Part shown: one piece after another, positions 2,541 to 59,364 of the stretch
Layout: each line of letters begins with the position of its first letter
How positions within the stretch are numbered: the first letter of the stretch is position 1
Origin: Halorubrum sp. BOL3-1
Lineage (GTDB): Archaea > Halobacteriota > Halobacteria > Halobacteriales > Haloferacaceae
Length of the DNA stretch: 64,000 nt
NCBI RefSeq assembly: GCF_004114375.1
Contig: NZ_CP034692.1
Coordinates: 1,860,001 to 1,924,000, forward strand
Direction: 5' to 3'
Notes under the pieces: generated by a model
What the model saw: the letters and a program-made list of their open reading frames with translations, nothing else
Told to the model about the DNA's origin: nothing
The model's database searches: none
Made by a program: the position numbers and the translations under genes

Positions 2541-3335
2541 TACCTCAACCCCGACGTGGAGGTGATAGCCGAGATCAACACCCCGGAGAGCTTCGAGACC
2601 TTCGCGGAGAGCCTGAACACCGGCCACGGCGTGATCGGCACGACGCACGCCGAGGACGTCGGGGCGCTGGCCAACCGCCTGCGGGAGCGGGACCTGCCCG
2701 CGCGCCTGCTCAGAGAGGTCGACCTCGTCGTCTTCCCCCGGCAGGTCGGCGGCGAGCGCTACGTCTCCCGGGCGATCGAACCGCTCTGCGAGGCCGCGTA
2801 CGAGGGACTCGACCCCGAGGCGAAGCGGAGTCCGACCGGCGACCCGAAGCGGGGGGGCGCCGGCGTCGTCGAGACCGGCGCCGAGTCCGTCCGGTACAAC
2901 ACGGTCGCGTGGCGCGACGGCGACGGGACCTTCCGGTTCCCGGGCGCGCCGGGCGCCTCCGGCGACGACGCGGCGGACGGGGACGGACCGACCGGCGCGG
3001 CGGCGGCCGGCGGGGACGACCGGCGACGCTTCCGCGTCTTCGACCGGATCGCGAGCCGGACCGACCGCGACCGCGAGGCCGTCGCCGCCGAGTTCGAGTC
3101 GAAGCGGCGGTACGTCGAGTACCTCGTGCGCGACGGCGTCGACGACCCCGACGAACTCTTCGAGTTCCTCGCCGACCTGCGCACCGACGAGGCGGCGACC
3201 GTCGAGCGCGCCGCCCGGACGATGGACCGGAGCGGAGACCGCGAGGGCGACGCGGCGAACGGCGGGAGAAAACCGACGAACTGCGGCGGTAGGCGGAACG
3301 ACGGGAGCGGGCCGGCGGGACGGAGGCGGTCGTGA
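2541..3335 (+). pseudogene. C-terminal fragment of a type IV pilus/secretion ATPase (PilB-like)
   Basis: The fragment matches the last part of the VirB11/PilB/FlaI ATPase family: EVIAEINTPESFETFAE, then the TGHGVIGTTHAEDV segment (His box) and the C-terminal helical region. The Walker A and most of the Walker B region, which must precede this, are missing. An in-frame TAA at 2535-2537 closes the frame on the element side. A GTG at 2556 could start a fragment of 259 residues, but it could not hydrolyse ATP. The stop overlaps the start of the PilC-like gene (GTGA at 3332), the normal arrangement for this pair. The upstream part was probably displaced by integration or recombination of the element on the left. 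Confidence 0.75.
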
Positions 3336-5314
3336 GCCGGCGGCGAGCGAGCGGCACGGCCGGGACGAACGCGGACGACGCGCTCGCGGCGGGCGGCCGG
3401 CTGGCGGTCGTCGACCGCGTCTGCTACGCGCTGTTCGCGCGCCACGCGAGCGACCGGCGGCACGACGCCGACCGGAAGCGGTACCGCGGGACCGCGCTCG
3501 ACACCGGCTTCGAGACGTACCTCGCGCGGGCGTACGGCCTCTCGTGGGTCGTCGCGGCCGCCGCCTTCCTCCCGGCGCTGGTCGTCGCGGCCGGCGCGGC
3601 CCCAGCGGTCGCGGCCGCGGTCGAGGCGCGGTTCGGCGCGGCGCTGCTCTCCGCGGGGTCGACCGCGTCGCCCGCGCCGACGCCCGACTCGGTCGGGCCG
3701 CTCCGCACGGACCGGGCCGCGGTGCTCGTCGCGGTCGCGGCCGCGCTCCTCGCGAAGCGCGTGACCGTGGCGGCCGCCGGTCTCCACCTCCGGTGGGTGG
3801 TCGCGACGCGGCGGACGGACATCGAGCGCACCCTCCCCGGGGCGGTGCGGTACCTCGAACTGCTCTCCTCTGGGAGCGACGAGCCGCGGGCGATGCTCCG
3901 GAAGGCGGCCGACGGCGACGCGTACGGCGGCACCGCGACCTCGCTGCGAAAGGCGCTCAACGCCGCCCGGCTCGCCGGGAGCCTCGACGAGGGACTGCGG
4001 CGCGTCGCCCGCGACACGCCCTCCCGAGAGCTGCTCGCGCCGTTCCTGCTCAAGTTCCGGAGGCACGCGGCCACGGGCGACGCGGCGCTCTCGGAGTTCC
4101 TCGCGACCGAGCGCCGAATGTTATCCCACCGCCGGGACCGCGCCCGAAAGCGCGCCCGGCGGTTCCTCGAACTGCTCACGGAGCTGTTCGTCGCCGTGTT
4201 GGTGTTGCCGGCGCTGCTCGTCATCGGCGCGACAGCGCTGTCGGTCGTCATCCCGGAACTGCTCCCGCCGGTGTCGACGCCCGTCGGCGTCGTGCCGACC
4301 CGCGCGGTCGTCCTCTACGGCGCGGTCGCGTTCCTCGTCGCGTTCGGACTCGCGGCCGCGGTCGCGGTCGGCACGCTCCGCCCGCCGAGCCAGCGGCCGA
4401 GCTACGAGGTCCCCGCGAACCCGCGGGCGGTTCTCGCGACCGCCGGCCGCAACCCCGCGAACACTGCGGTCGTCGCCGCGGGGCCGGCCGTCGCGCTCGC
4501 GCTCTGGCTCGCGGTCGCGGGATACACGCTCGTCAACGTCGCCCTCCTCGCGTACGCCGCCTTCGCGGTACCGGTCGGCGTCGTCGCCGCGCGGCGCACT
4601 CGGATCGACGACGCGAAGGACCGCGAGCTGGCGGACTTCGTCCACGCCGTCTCGGGGCACGTCGCGCAGGGGCGCCCGCTCGCCGAGGCGGTCGACGCGG
4701 TCGCGCGCGACGTCGACCTCGGCGTCCTCGACGACGACGTGGCCGACCTCGCGTTCGCGCTGCGGTCGACGACCGCGACCGGGGGAGCGCGGACGGGAGG
4801 AGACGAGACAGGGGAGTCGACCGACGTCCGGGCGGCCGCCGTCGAGCGGTTCGTCGACCGTGTTGGGACCCCGCTCGCGGCCGGGACGCTCGGTCTCGTC
4901 ACGGGGGCGCTGAACGCCGGCGGCGACGCCGACGCGGTCTTCGAGACGCTCCGGATCGAGGTCGGGCGGCTCTACAGCGAGCAGCGCGCGCTCCGGTCGT
5001 CGATGCAACCGTACATCGCGGTCGGCTGGGCCGCGGCGGTCCTCGTCGCGGGCGTCGTCGCGGTCGTGAACACGCAGGTGGTCGACGCCGCGCGGCTCGC
5101 GGAGATCGCGGCCGCGTCGGAGGCGGTGACGGAGCCGGAGGGAGTGTACCCCGAACTGGAGCGCTTCCGGCTGTACGTCGTCACGCAGGCGACCGTGCTC
5201 GCGTCCGGGTGGTTCGCTGGCACGGCGGCGCGCGGGAAGTACGCCGCGCTGCTCCACTCCGGCGCGCTGGTGGCGTGCTGTTACGTCGTGTTCACCGTGG
5301 GCGGGCTGGTGTGA
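3332..5314 (+). CDS. Type IV pilus/secretion membrane platform protein (PilC/FlaJ/TadC-like)
   Basis: The protein has 660 residues, with a GTG start overlapping the end of the pilB remnant. There are two T2SSF-type domains, at about 160-300 (LPGAVRYLELLSSG...) and 415-585 (LADFVHAVSGHVAQGRPLAEA...). Hydrophobic segments flank both, near 65-90, 125-150, 285-305, 325-345, 375-425, 565-585 and the C-terminus. The length and two-domain layout fit haloarchaeal PilC. It would form the inner platform on which the pilus ATPase acts. Its own ATPase partner gene is truncated here, so the pair cannot work unless another ATPase serves it. Confidence 0.85.
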   Translation: MSRRRASGTAGTNADDALAAGGRLAVVDRVCYALFARHASDRRHDADRKRYRGTALDTGFETYLARAYGLSWVVAAAAFLPALVVAAGAAPAVAAAVEARFGAALLSAGSTASPAPTPDSVGPLRTDRAAVLVAVAAALLAKRVTVAAAGLHLRWVVATRRTDIERTLPGAVRYLELLSSGSDEPRAMLRKAADGDAYGGTATSLRKALNAARLAGSLDEGLRRVARDTPSRELLAPFLLKFRRHAATGDAALSEFLATERRMLSHRRDRARKRARRFLELLTELFVAVLVLPALLVIGATALSVVIPELLPPVSTPVGVVPTRAVVLYGAVAFLVAFGLAAAVAVGTLRPPSQRPSYEVPANPRAVLATAGRNPANTAVVAAGPAVALALWLAVAGYTLVNVALLAYAAFAVPVGVVAARRTRIDDAKDRELADFVHAVSGHVAQGRPLAEAVDAVARDVDLGVLDDDVADLAFALRSTTATGGARTGGDETGESTDVRAAAVERFVDRVGTPLAAGTLGLVTGALNAGGDADAVFETLRIEVGRLYSEQRALRSSMQPYIAVGWAAAVLVAGVVAVVNTQVVDAARLAEIAAASEAVTEPEGVYPELERFRLYVVTQATVLASGWFAGTAARGKYAALLHSGALVACCYVVFTVGGLV

Positions 5315-5332
5315 ACGTCCTCGGCGTCCGGC

Positions 5333-7774
5333 TCACCGCCGCCGCAGCTCCGTCGACGGGTCGGCGTGTTCGTCCTCGTGACGGAGACAGCGGCTCCGGT
5401 GGTCCGCTCCGTCGACCGCGTGTGCGTCGACCTCGCCGTCCTCGCAGACGGAGCCGAACTCCTCTGCGAGGAGGTCTGCCGCCGCGCCCGGCGAGGAAGC
5501 TCCCCGTTCGACGGCAGCGTCGACCGTCGCCGCGACGTCGTCCGGGAGGTCGATGTCGCCGAACAGGTCCGTTGCGAGCGTTCGAATCGTGTCATCACCC
5601 CCGATCCCGAGCCGGCGTCGGACCGTCCGCGCCAGCGAGAACTGGGTCCGCGACCGCTCGCGGAGGACCGCTCGGAACGCCTCGATCGCCTCCCACGCCT
5701 CGGCCGACAGGTCGGCCGTCTCGGCCGCCCGGATATTCACCGGGCACCGCGTCGAGAACGGACATCCAGAGGGCGGATACCGCGGGTTCGGGGGTGACCC
5801 CCGGAGCGTGACCCGGTCCAACGACTCTGGCTTCGGCGTCGTCGACCCCGGGATCGCGGAGAGCAGCGACAGCGTGTACGGGTTCGCGGGCGCGTCGAAC
5901 ACCGCCTCGGTCGGGCCGATCTCAAGGAGGTTCCCGAGGTACATCACGGCGACGCGGTCGGTGATGTGGCGCACCACGGAAAGATCGTGGGCGATGAACA
6001 GCATCGTGATGTCGAGCGTCTCCTGGATCTCCCGTAGGAGGTTGATAATCCGGGCCTGTACCGAGACGTCGAGCGCGCTGACCGGCTCGTCCAAGACGAG
6101 GAATTCGGGGCTCAACGCGAGGGCCCGCGCGATCCCGACCCGCTGGCGTTGCCCACCGGAGAACTGGTGGGGATACCGGTAGAAGTGCTCTTCGAGCAGC
6201 CCGACCCGGTCGAGCAGTTCGAACACACGGTCTTCCCGTTCGCTCGGCGTCCCCCAGTCGTGTGCCTCCAGCGGCTCCTTGACGATCTGGCCGACGGTCA
6301 TCCGGTCGTTCAGGCTCTCTTCGGGGTCCTGAAACACGACGCCGACCTCACGCTGCCACTCCCGGAGTCCGCCCCCGGACAGCTCCGTCACGTCGCGGCC
6401 GTTGGCGATCACCGACCCGCCCGTCGCGGTTTCTAACCCGGCAAGCGTCCGCCCCAGCGTCGTCTTTCCGCAGCCGGACTCGCCGACGAGCCCGAGGATC
6501 TCGCCACGGCGGATCTCGAAGGAGACGCCGTCGACCGCGCGCACCGGCGGGTCCCTGTCGAGGACGCCGTCGTCCCCGTAGTACTTCCGCAGGCCGTCGA
6601 TCTCGACGAACGACTCGGAGCGGTCGGGTTCCGGCGACCGCGGGCCCGTCGCACCGTCGGACGCGTCGGTAGCGGCGGCCGCGTCGGTGACGGCTGTCGC
6701 GGTCGCGTCGGCACCCGCTTTCGCGTCTCCGCCCTCCTTCGCGTCGGTGACTGACGCCACGTCAGTAACGCTCGGCTCCGTGAGGTCGTGAACGAAACAC
6801 GCCACGGAGCCGTCGCCGTCGGCGCGCGCGACGTGCTCCGGGACGGCGTTCGAGCAGACCTCGCCCGCCGCCGGGCACCGGGGCGCGAACCGGCAGTTCG
6901 TCGCCTGCTCCGTCGGGGTCGGCACCTCGCCGTCGATCGTCGGAAGGGTCGCCGCCGCCGACGAGCGGCCGGGAACGCTCTCCAACAGCGCACGGGTGTA
7001 CGGGTGCTGCGGGTCCGCGAAGAGCGCGTCCGTCGAGGCCCGTTCGACGACGTTGCCCGCGTAGATCACGTTGACGCGGTCCGCCGTCTCCTCGATCACG
7101 CCCATGTCGTGGGTGATAAAGAGGATCGCGAGGTCCTCGCGGCGCTGTAGGTCGTCGAGGAGGTCGAGTATCTGCGCCTGGATCGTCACGTCGAGCGCGG
7201 TCGTCGGTTCGTCGCAGACGAGGAGGTCCGGGTCACAGGCCAACGCGATCGCGATCATCGCCCGTTGTTGCATCCCGCCGGAGAACTGGTGTGGATACTC
7301 GTCGACGCGGCGCGCGGCGTCGGGGATCCCCACGGATTCGAGCAGCTCGATCGCCCGCGACCGCGCCGCCGCCCCGGTGAGGTCCCGATGGATCCGGAGC
7401 GCCTCGCGGATCTGGTTGCCGACCGTGTACACCGGGTTGATGGAGTTTAATGGGTCCTGAAAGACGATCGCGATGTCGCCGCGGGCGTCCTCCCACCCGC
7501 GCTCGACGAGGTCGGTCCCGTCGAACCGGATCGAGCCCTCCTCGATCGCGCCCGGCGAGTCGACGAGTCCGAGAATCGAGCGCGCGGTGACCGACTTCCC
7601 GGACCCGGACTCGCCGACCAGACCGACGGTCTCGCCCGCTCGGATGTCGAACGAGACCCCGTCGACGGCGTGTATCGTCTCCTTACCGGTCCGGAACACG
7701 GTCCGGAGGTCGCGTACCTCTAAGAGCGCGTCCCCGTCGGCGTCCCGGTCGCGGGTGACGTCCGACCGACTCAT
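5333..7774 (-). CDS. Dipeptide/oligopeptide ABC transporter, two ATPases fused (DppD-DppF type)
   Basis: The protein has 813 residues. The first ATPase (about 15-330) has Walker A GESGSGKS, signature FSGGMQQR and Walker [13 protein letters not shown], followed by the oligopeptide-type Cys-rich tail (CRFAPRCP). A linker rich in Ala, Asp and Thr (about 335-395) joins the second ATPase, which has [16 protein letters not shown] and [12 protein letters not shown] plus its own CPFSTRCP tail. The ATG at 7774 overlaps the preceding gene by ATGA, and homology begins directly after it ([13 protein letters not shown]). It powers the permease pair encoded upstream in the same operon. The fusion is common in haloarchaea. 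Confidence 0.93.
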
Positions 7775-52829: not shown

Positions 52830-53522
52830 TCAGTCGGCGGCCTCCGATTCCTCGGTCTCGGCGGCCGTGGCCTCTTCGGCCTCTTCGGCGGCCTCCTCTT
52901 CCTCTTTTTTCGCTTTGATCTTCTTCATGCGGAAGATCTCCTCGCGCTCCTGCTCTTCGAGCTTCTGTTCGATGTACTCTTGGTTCTCGTACAGGGTCGG
53001 GAGCAGCGTGAACTCCAGGGCGTTCACGCGGCGCTTGGTCGTCTCGATCTCCGTGAGCATCTTCTTCATCGCCGTCTCGACCTCGGCGGCGAGGATGATC
53101 GATTCGAGCAGCCGCTCGTAGGCGTCGGCGGCCTCGTCGATCCGCGCCGAGGAGCCGAGCAAGCCGTATCCCCGCTCGTCGAGGCTCTTCTGGACCTTCG
53201 AGGATTCGATCTGCGGGACCACGACGCCCATGATGTTCTTCGACTGGGTCGTGATCTCGGGGTGTTCCTTCAGCGCCGCGGCCGCGCCGCGGACGGCGAC
53301 GTCGCCCTCCATCGCTCGGGCCATGTCGATCTTGCGCTGGGCCGTCTCGTAGTTCTCGGACACCTCCGACCGAACGTCCTGCGCCTGGTCGAGAATGTCC
53401 ATGAACTCCATGATGAGGCCGTCGCGCTTCTGTTCGAGCGTGTCGTGACCGCGCTCGGAGAGATCGATCCGGTCTTCGATCGCCATCAGGTTCTTGCGCG
53501 TCGGTTTGACATCCTCGGCCAT
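52830..53522 (-). CDS. atpD: A-type ATP synthase subunit D
   Basis: The protein has 230 residues. A long alpha-helical protein ([15 protein letters not shown]... and ...[34 protein letters not shown]) forms the central stalk. The family signature NALE is present. The C-terminus is charged ([19 protein letters not shown]). In related genomes it lies directly behind atpB; here three genes lie between. Confidence 0.95.
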
Positions 53523-53810
53523 CTTGGGGACAGGTTCCGCTCCGAGGGGGTTAATTCTTTTCAGACGCGGCGGATCGGCGGCCTGACAGGGACGGAGCCG
53601 TCGGCTGCGGCCGGGACAAAAAGAAAAAAGGACGGATCGCGTGCCTCTGACAGCGGCGGGCGATCGCTCCCGACGGCCGAGGTCGAGACGGCGACTCCCG
53701 TTCGGGTCCGGTGGGGCCGACAGCGGGGACGTGACCCGTCGGGACCCGTGGTGATCCGTCGTGTCGGTCGGTCCGGTGCCGGTCGCTACAGTTCGTGCGG
53801 CTCGCTCCGC
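53523..53810. other. Intergenic region with a T-rich stretch
   Basis: This holds the atpD promoter area: the minus strand reads aaaagaattaacc near 53545-53560, about 30 nt before the ATG. It also contains a minus-strand T-rich run (53620-53638, ttttttctttttgtc) that may end transcription of the gene at 53811. No further gene is seen. Confidence 0.4.
53620..53638 (-). terminator. T-rich terminator candidate
   Basis: The minus strand reads ttttttctttttgt following a GC-rich region downstream of the gene ending at 53811. Archaeal termination often needs only such a T-rich tract. It lies some 175 nt behind the stop codon. Confidence 0.35.
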
Positions 53811-54542
53811 TTACGTCCGTCGCCAACCGGCGTAGGTGAGGAGTCCGGCGACGAGGAGCGCCAGCGTCGGTGCCAGCGGGGTCGGCAGCGGGCCGTCGGT
53901 AACTCCTCCGGCCTCCGCGGGCGCGAGCGTGGCCGAGAACCCCGACAGGTCTGTACCGGGGCTCCACTCGGCGCCCGCGGCGCCGCCCTCGTCTGTCGCG
54001 ACCGTCGCGTCCGGCTCGACTGTCGCGTCGGCCAGCGCGTATCCGTTGGGTGCGACGAGCACGAACGGCCGATCCGGCCGGAATTCGCTTACGAACGGTT
54101 CGCTCACGACTAGCCGGTCGCCGTCAACCGCGGCGAGGTTCAACCACGACGCTGAGAGGCGAACGACGCCGGTCCCGTCCGTCGACTCAATTTCGGTCCG
54201 CACGTCGGAGACGCGCATCTCTCGTCCCGTCTCGGTCGCGGTCCGCTCGGCGATCCGCGTCACCCGGTCGTCGAACCGAGACGTGACGTTCCCGGACCGT
54301 CCGCGCAGCTCCTCGAACGCCGCCTCGTCGGCGTCGTCAGCGAGGTCGTACGTCAGTACGAGCGTGACCGTCGCGTCGCCGTCCGCGTCGAGCGCGACGA
54401 CGAACGACGGCCTTTCCTCGACTGCCGGCTCCGCCTCCGAGCCGTCGAGCGCCGCGACGCTCGGAGCGAGGAACGTAGCGATCACCGCGAGCGCCGCAAC
54501 GGAGGCGACAACGACGACGATCCGACCGCGAGAACGAGTCAC
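53811..54542 (-). CDS. Membrane-anchored extracellular domain protein (DUF7345-like)
   Basis: The protein has 243 residues. A signal/anchor helix lies at about 7-30, and the C-terminal helix near 220-240 (LAPTLALLVAGLLTYAGW) anchors it. The domain between (VALDADGDATVTLVLTYDLADDADEAAFEEL...) is shared with the extracellular part of the regulator at 56740: the pattern of a Ser/Val strand, EYERFQGR-like helix and WLNLAAVDGDRLVVSEPF strands aligns. The gene overlaps the end of the acidic surface protein gene by ATGA. The function is unknown. Confidence 0.75.
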   Translation of the reverse strand: MTRSRGRIVVVVASVAALAVIATFLAPSVAALDGSEAEPAVEERPSFVVALDADGDATVTLVLTYDLADDADEAAFEELRGRSGNVTSRFDDRVTRIAERTATETGREMRVSDVRTEIESTDGTGVVRLSASWLNLAAVDGDRLVVSEPFVSEFRPDRPFVLVAPNGYALADATVEPDATVATDEGGAAGAEWSPGTDLSGFSATLAPAEAGGVTDGPLPTPLAPTLALLVAGLLTYAGWRRT

Positions 54543-56560
54543 TCGTCGTCCTCCTCGTCGTCATCGTCGTCTCCCTCCTCGTCGTCATCGTCGTCGGTAT
54601 CGTCTTCGGCCTCGTCGTCGCTCTCGTCTTCGGTCTCGGCGTTATCACCCTCAGACTCGTCGCTCTCGTCTTCGGCATCGTCATCGTCCGCGGCGAACTC
54701 GAACTCGAGTTCGCCCTCGCGGTCGCCGTCTTCGACTTCGATCCCGACCTCGTCGTCGTCGGGCAGCGTCACGTCGATCCGCCCGTCCGCATCGGTCGTT
54801 CCGGCAGCCTCGCCTCCGACCTCGACGGTCGCGCCCTCGACGGGCTCGCCGGCGGCGTCGGTCACTTCGACCGTCGCCGTCGCGCCGGGAGCGGGGTCGC
54901 CGGAGACGACGGCGATCGAGAGGTTCTCGTCGTCCGCGTCGTCGCCGCTCTCGTCGTCCACGTCGGCTTCGTCGCCGCTCTCGTCGTCCACGTCGATGTC
55001 TCCGGTCGCGATCGTCCCGTCCGAACCGACCTCGAACTCGATCTCGGCCTCGAAGTCGCCCTTGACCAGCGTCACGTCGAACTCGTCCTCGGTAGGCGCG
55101 TCGAACGAGAGCGTTCCGTTCGCGCCGGTCGTTCCGACTCGGTCGCCGTCGACGGAGACGGAGACGTCCTCGACCGCTTCACTGTCGTAGGTCACCGAGA
55201 CGTCAACGGTCCCGTTCTCGACGGAGCCGCTGACGGAGAACCGCTCTGCGAAGTCGTCGTCGCGGTCGTCGCGGTCGTCGTCCGCGCCGAGCGTGAGCTC
55301 CAGTTCGCCCTCGCGCTCGCCGTCCGCGACTTCGATGTCGACCTCGTCGTCGTCGGGCAACGTCACTTCGATTCGGCCGTCCGCGTCGGTCGTCCCGGCG
55401 GCTCGGTCACCCAGTTCGACCGTCGCGCCCTCGACGGGCTCGGCGGCGGCGGTCACGCGGAGCGTCACCGTCGCGTTCGGCTCGGCCGTGCCGTTGGCGA
55501 TCGAGATCGAGAGGGGAGTCTCGTCGGCGGCGTCGTCACCGTCGTCCCGCTCGCGCGGTTCGGTCTCTTCCTCGAACTCGAAGACCTCGCCGGTCTGGCC
55601 GTCGACGCTCACGTCGGCCTCGCCGGTCGTCTCAGGGCCGAAGAAGGTGAACTCGAACTCGTAGTAGCCGTCGTCCTCGTCGCGGTCGGTGGACCGAAGC
55701 GTCCACTCGCCGTCTGCGTCGGTCGACAACTGCTCCGTGGCGGCGGTGAGCGCCTCGCTCTGGTTCACCTCGAAGGTGCCGTCGCCGGGCTGTTCGCGCT
55801 CGATCTCTCGTGACCGCTCGCCGTCGTCACTCTCGACCTCGATGGAGACGCCGCCGTCGACCTCCAGCGAGAACTCGCCGGCGCTCTCACCGGTGTACTG
55901 CGCGAGCAGGGCGCTCGCGCCGGTTCCGGTCACGCGGGTGAGCCGCTCTCTGGCGTCCGCGTTCGCGCTCTGATTGTAGCCGGCCGCCCGGAGCTCGATC
56001 CCGGAGACGTCGTCCGCGCCGTCCGCGACCCGTTCGAAGCCGCGGTCGACCGTCCGAGCCTGTCCAGAGAGGACCGCGAGCCGCTGGGCGAACTCGCCGC
56101 GGTCGATCTCGGCGTCCTCGTAGGCGACGCGGGCCTCGCGCTGGTCGGCGACGACCCCGTCGGCGCGCTCGCGGAGCGCCGCCGACCGCTCCGCGAGGAT
56201 CGCCGCGCGTTCGGACTCGTTCGCGTCTTCGAGCGCCGCGTCGAAAGACGAGGCGTCCACGTCACCCGACACCTCGTCGTCGGTAACTGCGATGATCGTC
56301 GCGAGCTGCTGTCCGACCGTCGCTCGCGAAGCGCCGTCGGTCGCGTTTCCGTCGTCGGAACCGCTCGCGTTTCCGTTCGTCGTGTTTCCGTCGGTCTGTG
56401 CGGAGACGGTCGACGCGTCGATACCGGTCGGCGCCGCTCCGTCCGTTCCAATGTCCGTCGCGTCCCCGCCGGTCGACGCGCTCGCCAGCGCGCCGCCGGG
56501 CACGGCGCCCACGACGAGCCCCAATGCCACGAGAACGGTCAGGATTTGTGTGCCTCGCAT
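54539..56560 (-). CDS. Large acidic surface protein with repeated Ig/carboxypeptidase-regulatory-like domains
   Basis: The protein has 673 residues. The signal sequence (TQILTVLVALGLVVGAVPGGALA) suggests export by Sec. A helical domain of about 100-260 and a PepSY-like stretch (YYEFEFTFFGPETTGEADVSVDGQTGEVFEFEEE) follow. Two near-identical repeats with GTTDADGRI-VTLPDDDEV lie at about 390-460 and 560-630, with a related region between. A highly acidic C-terminus (mostly D and E) ends the protein. It is a haloarchaeal DUF7096-like or similar surface protein of unknown function. It shares a divergent promoter region with the regulator. Confidence 0.7.
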   Translation of the reverse strand: MRGTQILTVLVALGLVVGAVPGGALASASTGGDATDIGTDGAAPTGIDASTVSAQTDGNTTNGNASGSDDGNATDGASRATVGQQLATIIAVTDDEVSGDVDASSFDAALEDANESERAAILAERSAALRERADGVVADQREARVAYEDAEIDRGEFAQRLAVLSGQARTVDRGFERVADGADDVSGIELRAAGYNQSANADARERLTRVTGTGASALLAQYTGESAGEFSLEVDGGVSIEVESDDGERSREIEREQPGDGTFEVNQSEALTAATEQLSTDADGEWTLRSTDRDEDDGYYEFEFTFFGPETTGEADVSVDGQTGEVFEFEEETEPRERDDGDDAADETPLSISIANGTAEPNATVTLRVTAAAEPVEGATVELGDRAAGTTDADGRIEVTLPDDDEVDIEVADGEREGELELTLGADDDRDDRDDDFAERFSVSGSVENGTVDVSVTYDSEAVEDVSVSVDGDRVGTTGANGTLSFDAPTEDEFDVTLVKGDFEAEIEFEVGSDGTIATGDIDVDDESGDEADVDDESGDDADDENLSIAVVSGDPAPGATATVEVTDAAGEPVEGATVEVGGEAAGTTDADGRIDVTLPDDDEVGIEVEDGDREGELEFEFAADDDDAEDESDESEGDNAETEDESDDEAEDDTDDDDDEEGDDDDDEEDDE

Positions 56561-56585
56561 GACGATCGCAACAAAAGTCCCTACC

Positions 56586-56714
56586 CTCATATACTGGGAC
56601 GACCGTGGTACTCCGTTCCGCCGAGTTTCGATGTCTTGGGTCCACGAGACGGACCGTTTCACCGAGTTTCACCGCGTTTCTCGGCACCGTCACGAGACGA
56701 TCTGTGGGTTTAAT
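56586..56714. promoter_or_regulatory. Divergent promoter region
   Basis: For the surface protein the minus strand reads gtatatgagg (56586-56595), about 27-35 nt before the ATG at 56560. For the regulator, gtttaattc (56706-56714) lies about 26-34 nt before the ATG at 56740. Both spacings fit leaderless transcripts. Confidence 0.5.
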
Positions 56715-56739
56715 TCCGGCGGCGAAGAACTATCTATCA

Positions 56740-57888
56740 ATGAAACGACGCGGCCGGACGACCGGTTCGATCGCCGCCCTCCTCCTCGCCGTCTGCTGCG
56801 TGGCGGCTCTCGGCGTCGCCGTCCCCGCCGGTGCGCAGTCCGTCGCGGTCCCCCAGACCGACGATCAGCCCGCCCCGGACAACACGATCACGCGGATCGA
56901 CCTCGCTGCCGACGGCTCGGCGACGTGGGAGATCACCCTCCGGACGCGACTCGAAAACGACTCCGACGTCGCGGAGTACGAGCGGTTCCAAGGCCGGTTC
57001 CGGTCGAACACGAGCCGCTACCTCGATCCCTTCTCCGAACGGATGTCCGGCGTCGTCGCGGCCGCGAACGACTCGTCGGACCGCGAGATGCGCGCGACCG
57101 ACTTCGCGGCCGACACCGCGATACAGGAGGTCCCGCGGCGGTGGGGCGTCGTTCGCTTCCGGTTCACGTGGACCGGCTTCGCCGCGGTCGACGGCGACGC
57201 CGTGGTCGCCGGGGACGTCTTCGCTGGGGGGTTCTTTATCACCGACGACGACTCGCTGGCCGTCTCGGTGCCGGACGGGTACGCGGTCGAGTCGGTCTCC
57301 CCGGACCCGGACGAGGTCGGCGACGGCGTCGTCGAGTGGCGCGGCCGCGAGGACTTCGACGACGGCCGGCCGAGCGTCCGCGCCGTGCCGGCGGCGAGAG
57401 GCGGCGGCGACGCCGGCGGCGACGGCGCGGGCGGAGGGGCGGACTCGGGCGGGGTCGGGAACGCAACTCTCCTCGCCGCGCTCGCACTCGTCTTCGGGGC
57501 GGCCGGACTCGCCGCATACGCCGTGCGGACCGGTCGGCTCGGACTCGGCGGCGAGCAGACCGATCACGGGAGAGGCTCCACGGCCACAGACCGCAACGAC
57601 GCCGTCGACGATGACGGCGGGGCCGCCACTACGACCGAGCCCGGCACCGGCAACGAGTCCGACGCGGTCGATCCCGAACTCCTCACCGACGAGGACCGGA
57701 TCAGGCGGACCCTCCGCGAGCGCGATGGACGGATGAAGCAGTCCGACGTAGTCGAGGAACTCGGCTGGTCGAAATCAAAGACCTCGCGCGTGCTCTCGCG
57801 GATGGCTGAGGAGGGTGATATCGAGAAGCTGCGGATCGGCCGCGAGAACGTGATCGATCTCGCCGCCGACCCGGCCGACGAGGACTGA
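56740..57888 (+). CDS. Membrane-bound regulator: extracellular domain, one helix, winged helix
   Basis: The protein has 382 residues. A signal helix lies at about 8-32. An extracellular part (about 45-215) is similar to the domain encoded at 53811. A Gly/Ala-rich linker leads to one membrane helix (about 245-265, LLAALALVFGAAGLAAYAV), then an acidic linker and a cytoplasmic winged helix (about 310-380: LTDEDRIRRTLRERDGRMKQ, VVEELGWSKSKTSRVLSRMAEEGD). It is built like a one-component membrane regulator that passes an outside signal to DNA. It probably controls the divergent genes; this is inference. Confidence 0.75.
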   Translation: MKRRGRTTGSIAALLLAVCCVAALGVAVPAGAQSVAVPQTDDQPAPDNTITRIDLAADGSATWEITLRTRLENDSDVAEYERFQGRFRSNTSRYLDPFSERMSGVVAAANDSSDREMRATDFAADTAIQEVPRRWGVVRFRFTWTGFAAVDGDAVVAGDVFAGGFFITDDDSLAVSVPDGYAVESVSPDPDEVGDGVVEWRGREDFDDGRPSVRAVPAARGGGDAGGDGAGGGADSGGVGNATLLAALALVFGAAGLAAYAVRTGRLGLGGEQTDHGRGSTATDRNDAVDDDGGAATTTEPGTGNESDAVDPELLTDEDRIRRTLRERDGRMKQSDVVEELGWSKSKTSRVLSRMAEEGDIEKLRIGRENVIDLAADPADED

Positions 57889-57939: not shown

Positions 57940-59364
57940 TCAGTCCGCCGCTTCGACGGCTTCGCGCTCGGCGTCGTCCTCGCGGTAGTACTCCTCGATG
58001 AACTCCTCGTCGACCCGGTTGAGGGCCTCCTTCGGGAGCGTCGAGAGGAGGTCCCAGCCGATAGAGAGGGTCTCCTCGATGTCACGGTTCGTCTCGAAGC
58101 CCTGGTCGATGAACTCCGACTCGAACGCGTCCGCGAAGTCGAGATACTTGTTGTCGAGCTCCGAGAGCGCCTCGCGGCCGACGATGTTCACGAGGTCGCG
58201 GAGGTCTTCGCCCTCCGCGTACGCCGCGAACATCTGGTTCGCGACGTCCTCGTGGTCGGCGCGGGTGAGGCCCTCACCGATCCCGTCGTCCATCAGCCGG
58301 GAGAGGCTGGGAAGGACGTTGACGGGAGGTTCGAGCCCCTGACTGTTGAGATCGGGGTCGACGTAGATCTGTCCTTCGGTGATGTACCCGGTCAGGTCCG
58401 GGATCGGGTGGGTGTCGTCGTCGCCCGGCATCGTGAGGATCGGGATCTGCGTGACCGACCCCTCACGACCCTGTATCCGGCCCGCGCGCTCGTACAGCTG
58501 CGCCAGGTCGGTGTACATGTACCCGGGGTATCCGCGGCGACCGGGCACCTCCTCGCGGGCCGCGCCGATCTCGCGGAGCGCCTCGCAGTAGTTGGTCATG
58601 TCCGTCAGGATGACGAGGACGTGGTAGTCCTTCTCGAAGGCGAGGTACTCGGCCGTGGTGAGCACCATCCGCGGCGTGACCGTCCGCTCGACGGCGGGGT
58701 CGTCCGCGAGGTTCATGAAGACGACGGAGCGCTCCAAGGCGCCGGTGCGCTCGAAGTCCTCCATGAACTCGTTCGCCTCCTCTTGGGTGATCCCCATCGC
58801 GCCGAAGATGACGGCGAACTCGGAGCCGTCCTCGTCGTCGTCGCCCTCCTCCTCTTCGGGCACGCTGGCCTGCCGCGCGATCTGCATCGCCAGCTCGCTG
58901 TGCGGCTGGCCCGAGCTGGAGAAGATCGGGAGCTTCTGGCCCCGCACCAGGGTGTTCATCCCGTCGATGGCGGAGACGCCCGTCTCGATGAACTCCTCGG
59001 GGTACTCCCGGGAGTACGGGTTGATCGCCGCGCCGACGATGTCCCGTCGCTCCTCGGGGACGATCTCCGGACCGTCGTCGATCGGCCGACCGGAGCCGTC
59101 CATCACCCGCCCGAGGAGGTCCTCGGTGACGGGCATCTTCATCGTCTCGCCCAAGAAGCGGACGGACGCGTCTCTGTCGATACCGCTCGTCCCCTCGAAG
59201 ACCTGGATGGCGACGACGCCCTCCGAGGACTCGAGCACCTGACCGCGCAGCGTCTCGCCCTGTGCCGTCTCGATCTCGACGATCTCGTCGTAGCCGATCG
59301 CCTCGTCGACCTCGGCGTACACGAGGGGACCGCTGATCTCGGTGATGGTTTGGTACTCTTTCAT
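57940..59364 (-). CDS. atpB: A-type ATP synthase subunit B
   Basis: The protein has 474 residues. It contains the nucleotide-binding-like core with [20 protein letters not shown], in place of a P-loop, and the family signature [19 protein letters not shown]. The start [20 protein letters not shown] is typical. It is the non-catalytic subunit in the A3B3 ring. The gene follows atpA with only a one-base gap. Its acidic C-terminal tail is [13 protein letters not shown]-like. Confidence 0.97.

Follow-up and report, generated by a model that had tools for sequence, protein, structure and literature searches.

Little is known about signalling from the surface layer to the genome in haloarchaea. For the membrane-bound regulator ToxR, direct repeats at a pitch of ~10 bp lie near the regulated promoter. 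In Haloferax volcanii, HVO_0307 and HVO_1945 are exported N-glycosylated proteins, and HVO_0306 and HVO_1944 bear glycopeptides and are annotated as 'transmembrane glycoprotein/HTH domain' proteins (HTH, helix-turn-helix) (PMC8241124); CdrS has been found to bind upstream of HVO_1944 in vivo (PMC8406309). The literature searched holds no description of function for either of these pairs. Here we describe three genes, A, B and C, lying between atpB and atpD in a stretch of 64,000 nucleotides of Halorubrum sp. BOL3-1 (contig NZ_CP034692.1, positions 1,860,001 to 1,924,000; hereafter the window), which we propose to be a mobile, divergently organised version of a regulator and surface-protein system found throughout the haloarchaea. 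The three genes are as follows.

53811..54542, minus strand: gene A, with a signal peptide, a free DUF7345 domain and a predicted C-terminal membrane anchor (PTPLAPTLALLVAGLLTYAGWRRT), and without a DNA-binding domain
54539..56560, minus strand: gene B, with a Sec signal, a DUF7096 helical bundle, a PepSY-like alpha-beta region, three Ig/Fn3-like domains and a disordered acidic tail
56740..57888, plus strand: gene C, with a signal or first transmembrane segment, a DUF7345 ectodomain, a single transmembrane segment, a disordered linker and a DUF7343 winged helix

The trio is flanked by atpB (57940-59364, minus strand) and atpD (52830-53522, minus strand), and C is transcribed divergently from B and A across an intergenic region of 179 bp. 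All three genes are real and occupy the coordinates given in a preliminary description of this DNA. That description also assigned a winged helix to the inner end of C, which is borne out by domain searches: C matches DUF7345 (PF24036; E=1.4e-32, 113.1 bits, Pfam cut-off 27.5) and the DUF7343 winged helix (PF24034; E=2.1e-29, 101.6 bits, cut-off 27.6), and the presence of both above cut-off in one chain is what defines a DUF7345-DUF7343 regulator here. Between the two domains, hydropathy and the structural model both place one transmembrane segment (residues 240-263), which gives C the make-up of a membrane-spanning regulator, and a long disordered linker (residues 268-310) joins this segment to the winged helix. 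In the AlphaFold2 model the ectodomain, the transmembrane segment and the winged helix are all confident, and the winged helix matches HTH_IclR/MarR-like models. The two folded domains are located thus.

56893..57282, plus strand: DUF7345 ectodomain of C, residues 52-181, predicted local distance difference test (pLDDT) scores mostly >95
57679..57861, plus strand: DUF7343 winged helix of C, residues 314-374, MarR/ArsR/Zalpha-like fold

A sequence search for solved homologues of C returned none, and structure matches for the DUF7345 and DUF7096 parts were weak where compared. A Foldseek match of the C model to LppM (2nc8; E 1.4e-4, target template-modelling score 0.44) is a hint at most, and the top-ranked Foldseek rows, to FMO proteins with a template-modelling score of ~0.17, were discounted. 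No histidine kinase or receiver domain was found in A, B or C by domain search, so the trio is not a two-component system in this respect; PADLOC, applied to the components, returned only a weak match of the C winged helix to CARF_TM (18.3 bits), which does not place the trio among anti-phage defences.

A candidate operator array lies in the region between B and C, which had been noted earlier as a shared promoter region. The elements of this region are listed here.

56588..56593, minus strand: TATA-like box of B, at -28 to -33, putative leaderless architecture
56615..56629, plus strand: array cluster 1, GTTCC-N5-GTTTC, near the B promoter
56656..56680, plus strand: array cluster 2, GTTTC-N5-GTTTC-N5-GTTTC, near the C promoter
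56709..56713, plus strand: TATA-like box of C, TTTAA, at -31 to -27 of the ATG, putative leaderless architecture

The TATA-like boxes lie ~30 nt from the ATG and would fit leaderless starts at 56560 for B and 56740 for C. The two clusters of RTTBC units at an exact 10-bp pitch within this promoter region are new here. Such units are shared by the B-C regions of the cassettes, and the best-preserved of these hold two clusters of three units set 20-21 bp apart, one nearer each promoter. Against dinucleotide shuffles, exact 5-mer repeats in the cassette intergenic regions give z = 15.4 at lag 10 and 14.4 at lag 20, values that are not to be read as probabilities, as the cassette loci are related and not independent; the same test applied to the core pairs described below gives z = 1.3 and 1.4, and the array is not seen there. 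Taken locus by locus (300 shuffles each), p is ~0.01 or less in 10 divergent cassettes, the window included, and two loci (L045 and L047) retain the 10-bp pitch despite drift of the core sequence. The motif RTTBC-N5-RTTBC has three matches in the window, all of them in the 179-bp B-C region (shuffle mean 1.64 per 64 kb), and the three-unit array has a single exact match in the 3.67 Mb genome. A genome-wide regulon acting through the array was considered and rejected, the cassette site being the sole match and relaxed matches standing at control level. Elsewhere, a very strong lag-10 repeat (score 221, 99th percentile 8.5) was seen at ~2585 of locus L136, upstream of a gene for a 218-aa protein; it is probably a tandem repeat.

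The distribution of the trio is that of a unit inherited together and able to move. Gene calls in relatives came from a simple composition-based caller, which can miss or mis-start genes; one additional C (locus L039) that it overlooked was recovered as a tblastn match. Free A proteins occur in 27 of 170 Haloferacaceae genomes, as well as in other families and outside the Haloarchaea, and of 34 A loci examined, 32 have B no more than two genes away and 22 have C at that range. The trio recurs across seven genera of Haloferacaceae, both inside and outside atp loci: it fills the atpB-atpD gap in Halorubrum and two other genera, sits at unrelated sites elsewhere, and in Halobaculum roseum is carried on a plasmid. 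The check that the preliminary description had called for, whether the genes keep together away from the atp locus, thus comes out in its favour. Over 17 trios the pairwise distances of A, B and C are correlated with Mantel r of 0.953-0.961, with 0 of 2000 permutations as high. At 84% in all three proteins, a near-identical trio is common to a Halorubrum (G097) and a member of another genus (G176) (loci L048 and L052). Carriage by viruses was considered and rejected, as no relatives of the trio were found in viral contigs. Outside the Haloarchaea, a divergent arrangement of a free DUF7345 gene, a DUF7096-like gene (profile match) and a DUF7345-DUF7343 gene stands at 3132-5713 of locus L130 (genome G267), which suggests that the trio predates the Haloarchaea. 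As a side observation, two loci with A and B and no adjacent C (L049 and L057) lie beside a gene whose product is a multicopper protein resembling nitrite reductase.

The pairing of B with C extends well beyond these cassettes. In a survey of 116 haloarchaeal genomes from 45 genera, DUF7345 and DUF7096 matches were present in all 116, and the best DUF7096 gene adjoined and diverged from a DUF7345 regulator in 111 of 115 genomes, among the matches listed. The pairing of a C-type regulator with a DUF7096 gene across nearly all haloarchaea, and the way in which the distances of A, B and C track one another, both favour the earlier proposal that these proteins work together. At locus L065 the order is etfA, etfB, regulator, DUF7096 gene, a pilin-like gene, a menG-like methyltransferase gene and then atpH onward, and in most haloarchaea the core pair is fixed in this way between etfBA and the menG-atp genes (e.g. 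L065 4391-10594). The genome of the window (L063) and many others also have a second regulator locus, at which the regulator and a DUF7096-like gene are co-directional. HVO_0309 is menG (PMC8305020). From this together with synteny, annotation and adjacency, we infer that HVO_0306/0307 and HVO_1944/1945 are the core and second pairs, and since Haloferax members of both pairs are glycosylated, their outer domains face outwards. A GGAAAGCGTTTTCC-like element stands at about -38 of the core regulator ATG, within three mismatches in 38 of 48 cases vs 6 of 574 control upstream regions; this near-palindromic element is conserved over the core class (e.g. L074, L092 and L062), and may represent a conserved transcription factor B recognition element (BRE)/TATA or an overlapping operator. 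The recognition helices of the three regulator clades differ in step and are clade-specific, reading WSKSKTSRVLS in the cassette regulators and WSnAKVSQLLS in the core regulators.

B has the properties of a surface protein. It combines a DUF7096 match (PF23379; E=9.6e-11, 42.4 bits, cut-off 27) with an N-terminal hydrophobic Sec signal, and matches Fn3_arc (E=2.6e-12); three Ig/Fn3-like domains are indicated by the AlphaFold2 model and by fold matches. There are 11 N-glycosylation sequons, and D/E make up 67% of the last 70 aa. In the same model residues ~265-335 form a helix followed by four strands, and this predicted fold and a sequence pattern resemble those of secreted PepSY-domain proteins, with a weak YPEB_PepSY match in one B orthologue; domain search of the window B itself, however, gave no significant PepSY match, and core homologues have DUF7094 at that place. 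Matches of the DUF7096 profile to regulators after iteration were disregarded as profile drift. The stop of B and the start of A share 4 nt (GTGA), and therefore the translational coupling proposed earlier is plausible; the spacing among orthologues varies from the same 4-nt overlap up to a gap of ~200 nt.

A was at first portrayed as a secreted protein, as like the extracellular part of C, and as a free copy of that regulator's own sensor. The likeness stands: A matches DUF7345 (E=1.6e-21), and the A and C ectodomains align at 31% over 185 aa (E=6e-17). In a DUF7345 tree of 137 columns, made by a quick method and weak at many forks, the free A proteins form their own clade of 32 rows with 99% support, apart from cassette regulators (support 99), core regulators and second-locus regulators, which also separate from one another. 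This is at odds with a recent copy of the C sensor, which we rejected, and the separate clade points to A as an ancient paralogue kept with B. Nor does A appear to be simply secreted. PGF-CTERM tails are processed by the archaeosortase ArtA with lipid anchoring of the substrate, and A orthologues at L048, L049, L053 and L056 exceed the NCBIfam TIGR04126 cut-off for this tail; the Halobaculum roseum A carries a PGF-CTERM annotation as well. The window A differs from such substrates in lacking the PGF motif and has no NCBIfam match, and in its clade a tail of the form PTPLxP-TM-WRR (TM, transmembrane segment) takes the place of PGF-CTERM, such that membrane anchoring of the window A is likely.

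It is reasonable to postulate how these parts may operate together. C would be oriented with DUF7345 outwards and the winged helix inwards, and would bind the helically phased RTTBC array between the two promoters, thereby setting its own transcription and that of the putatively leaderless B-A operon. B would be exported and glycosylated and become part of the surface layer, and A would modulate C most likely through ectodomain contact, as a decoy or co-receptor, with the output of C dependent on the state of the surface or on B. As a whole, the proposal that C is a transmembrane one-component regulator with local control over its surface-protein operon, and that A modulates the outer domain of C, is in our estimate evenly poised between right and wrong; local autoregulation taken by itself we hold with greater confidence. 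A more specific form, in which C reads the surface by contact with B, is tuned by an anchored DUF7345 decoy and acts from the membrane on the array at its own promoter, with the B-C core present in all haloarchaea, is offered tentatively and is more doubtful.

Several points weigh against this proposal. Co-inheritance along the species tree would also correlate the A, B and C distances, although the 84% agreement of L048 and L052 in all three proteins is between different genera. The preliminary description held that independent occurrence of the genes would speak against it, and this is found in part: several loci have A and B with no C next to them, and B and C without A are the rule, which makes A an accessory to a B-C core whose pairs work without it. 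The DUF7345 fold has no convincing solved relative, and a sensing role is therefore argued from architecture. The array was found post hoc, and its three-unit form has a genome-wide chance expectation that is below 1 and not negligible, so that uniqueness by itself is modest evidence. Finally, the plasmid-type cassettes L048, L051 and L052 show only two clear units, and the array of L058 is weak.

A simpler account would have C as a plain autoregulator that holds the dose of surface protein constant, with the DUF7345 domains of A and C as structural surface modules and the trio as a mobile surface-coat island. The length, acidity, Ig-rich make-up and many sequons of B suit such an island, as do PGF-CTERM anchoring in A orthologues, as in S-layer proteins, and the restriction of the array to its own promoter region. 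Pure dose control, however, would leave superfluous a regulator that spans the membrane and has a strongly conserved outer domain, kept in all 116 genomes, and we consider this account rather unlikely.

It might also be supposed that the system reports on the energetic state of the membrane and controls genes for ATP synthase or respiration, so that its atp neighbourhood would carry meaning. In 77 of 106 genomes, among the matches listed, the distance from the core pair to atpI is 3.3-5.4 kb, with the pair between etfBA and the methyltransferase gene (menG) next to atpH, and the window cassette too sits inside an atp cluster. Against this, the linkage of the core pair to atpI has been lost in Halorubrum genomes, cassettes occur away from atp, and no array matches were found near atp promoters. 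Furthermore, atpB and atpD are direct neighbours in many Halorubrum and in other genera (L148-L150, L152, L161, L165 and L166 among others), and in further genomes the space between them is taken up by bacteriorhodopsin with its activator bat and lycopene cyclase, by blh, by an ABC transporter or by a nucleotidase. A conserved TATA-like element lies ~30 nt before atpD with or without cargo:

53551..53556, minus strand: TATA-like element of atpD, its own apparent promoter, kept in empty and occupied sites

As atpD appears to have its own promoter, insertion would be tolerated. Empty or otherwise filled gaps, together with non-atp cassettes, led us to reject a functional meaning for the location of the trio; the position is a recurrent insertion slot without regulatory meaning, and the core pair-atp linkage of other genera is a separate fact. 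We thus judge control by membrane energetics improbable. It was also observed that genes for a light-driven proton pump occupy the gap beside ATP synthase at several loci (L151 3484-7025, L163, L167, L154, L042 and L035), and that at L042 and L035 the DUF7345 trio stands together with rhodopsin-associated genes. Last, release of the winged helix by cleavage in the transmembrane segment or linker upon an ectodomain signal, with A competing for the protease, would make use of the long disordered linker and is very unlikely, given that the trio has no linked protease gene, that regulators tethered to the membrane can work uncleaved, and that phased arrays are equally compatible with a tethered protein.

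A further feature lies downstream of A.

53619..53766, minus strand: non-coding block 3' of A, conserved in Halorubrum atp-locus cassettes

Some ~120 bp of it are kept in L035-L041, with unconserved spacer on either side; the block can fold, with a covariation term of ~0 that is not significant, and Rfam gave only sub-threshold chance matches across 52.7-58.2 kb.

Returning to the proposal of a transmembrane regulator with its own surface-protein operon, the overall interpretation first given to this locus is upheld in part, in the co-occurrence of the genes and the shared promoter region, and lacks support for a role of the atp position, a sensor copy and a secreted A. Its claim of an undescribed system is fair for the system and not for the proteins, which belong to Pfam DUF families and have Haloferax annotations as 'transmembrane glycoprotein/HTH domain protein'. 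Found in essentially all haloarchaeal genomes tested, and with glycoproteins among its Haloferax members, the pair of regulator and surface protein is a ready test case; the mobile trio is a small and separable form of it in which a candidate operator can be seen, and for which binding, topology and a decoy role are directly testable in Haloferax volcanii.

In comparison with known systems, C resembles regulators of the ToxR/CadC type as a single-pass membrane protein with an extracytoplasmic domain and a cytoplasmic winged helix, and in having direct repeats at ~10-bp pitch by the promoter, here a candidate operator. It differs in that its winged helix is C-terminal and MarR/ArsR-like, whereas theirs is N-terminal and OmpR-like, and in that its ectodomain has no known relative by sequence and the protein is archaeal; lacking an N-terminal OmpR-type domain, it is not filed with that group. 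The HVO_0306/HVO_0307 and HVO_1944/HVO_1945 pairs differ from the cassette in having, as a rule, no neighbouring free DUF7345 gene, and core regulators in having another recognition helix and, instead of the 10-bp-pitch array, a conserved GGAAAGCGTTTTCC element near -38, yet these pairs share with the trio the same basic arrangement, a DUF7345-transmembrane-DUF7343 regulator beside a DUF7096 surface protein.

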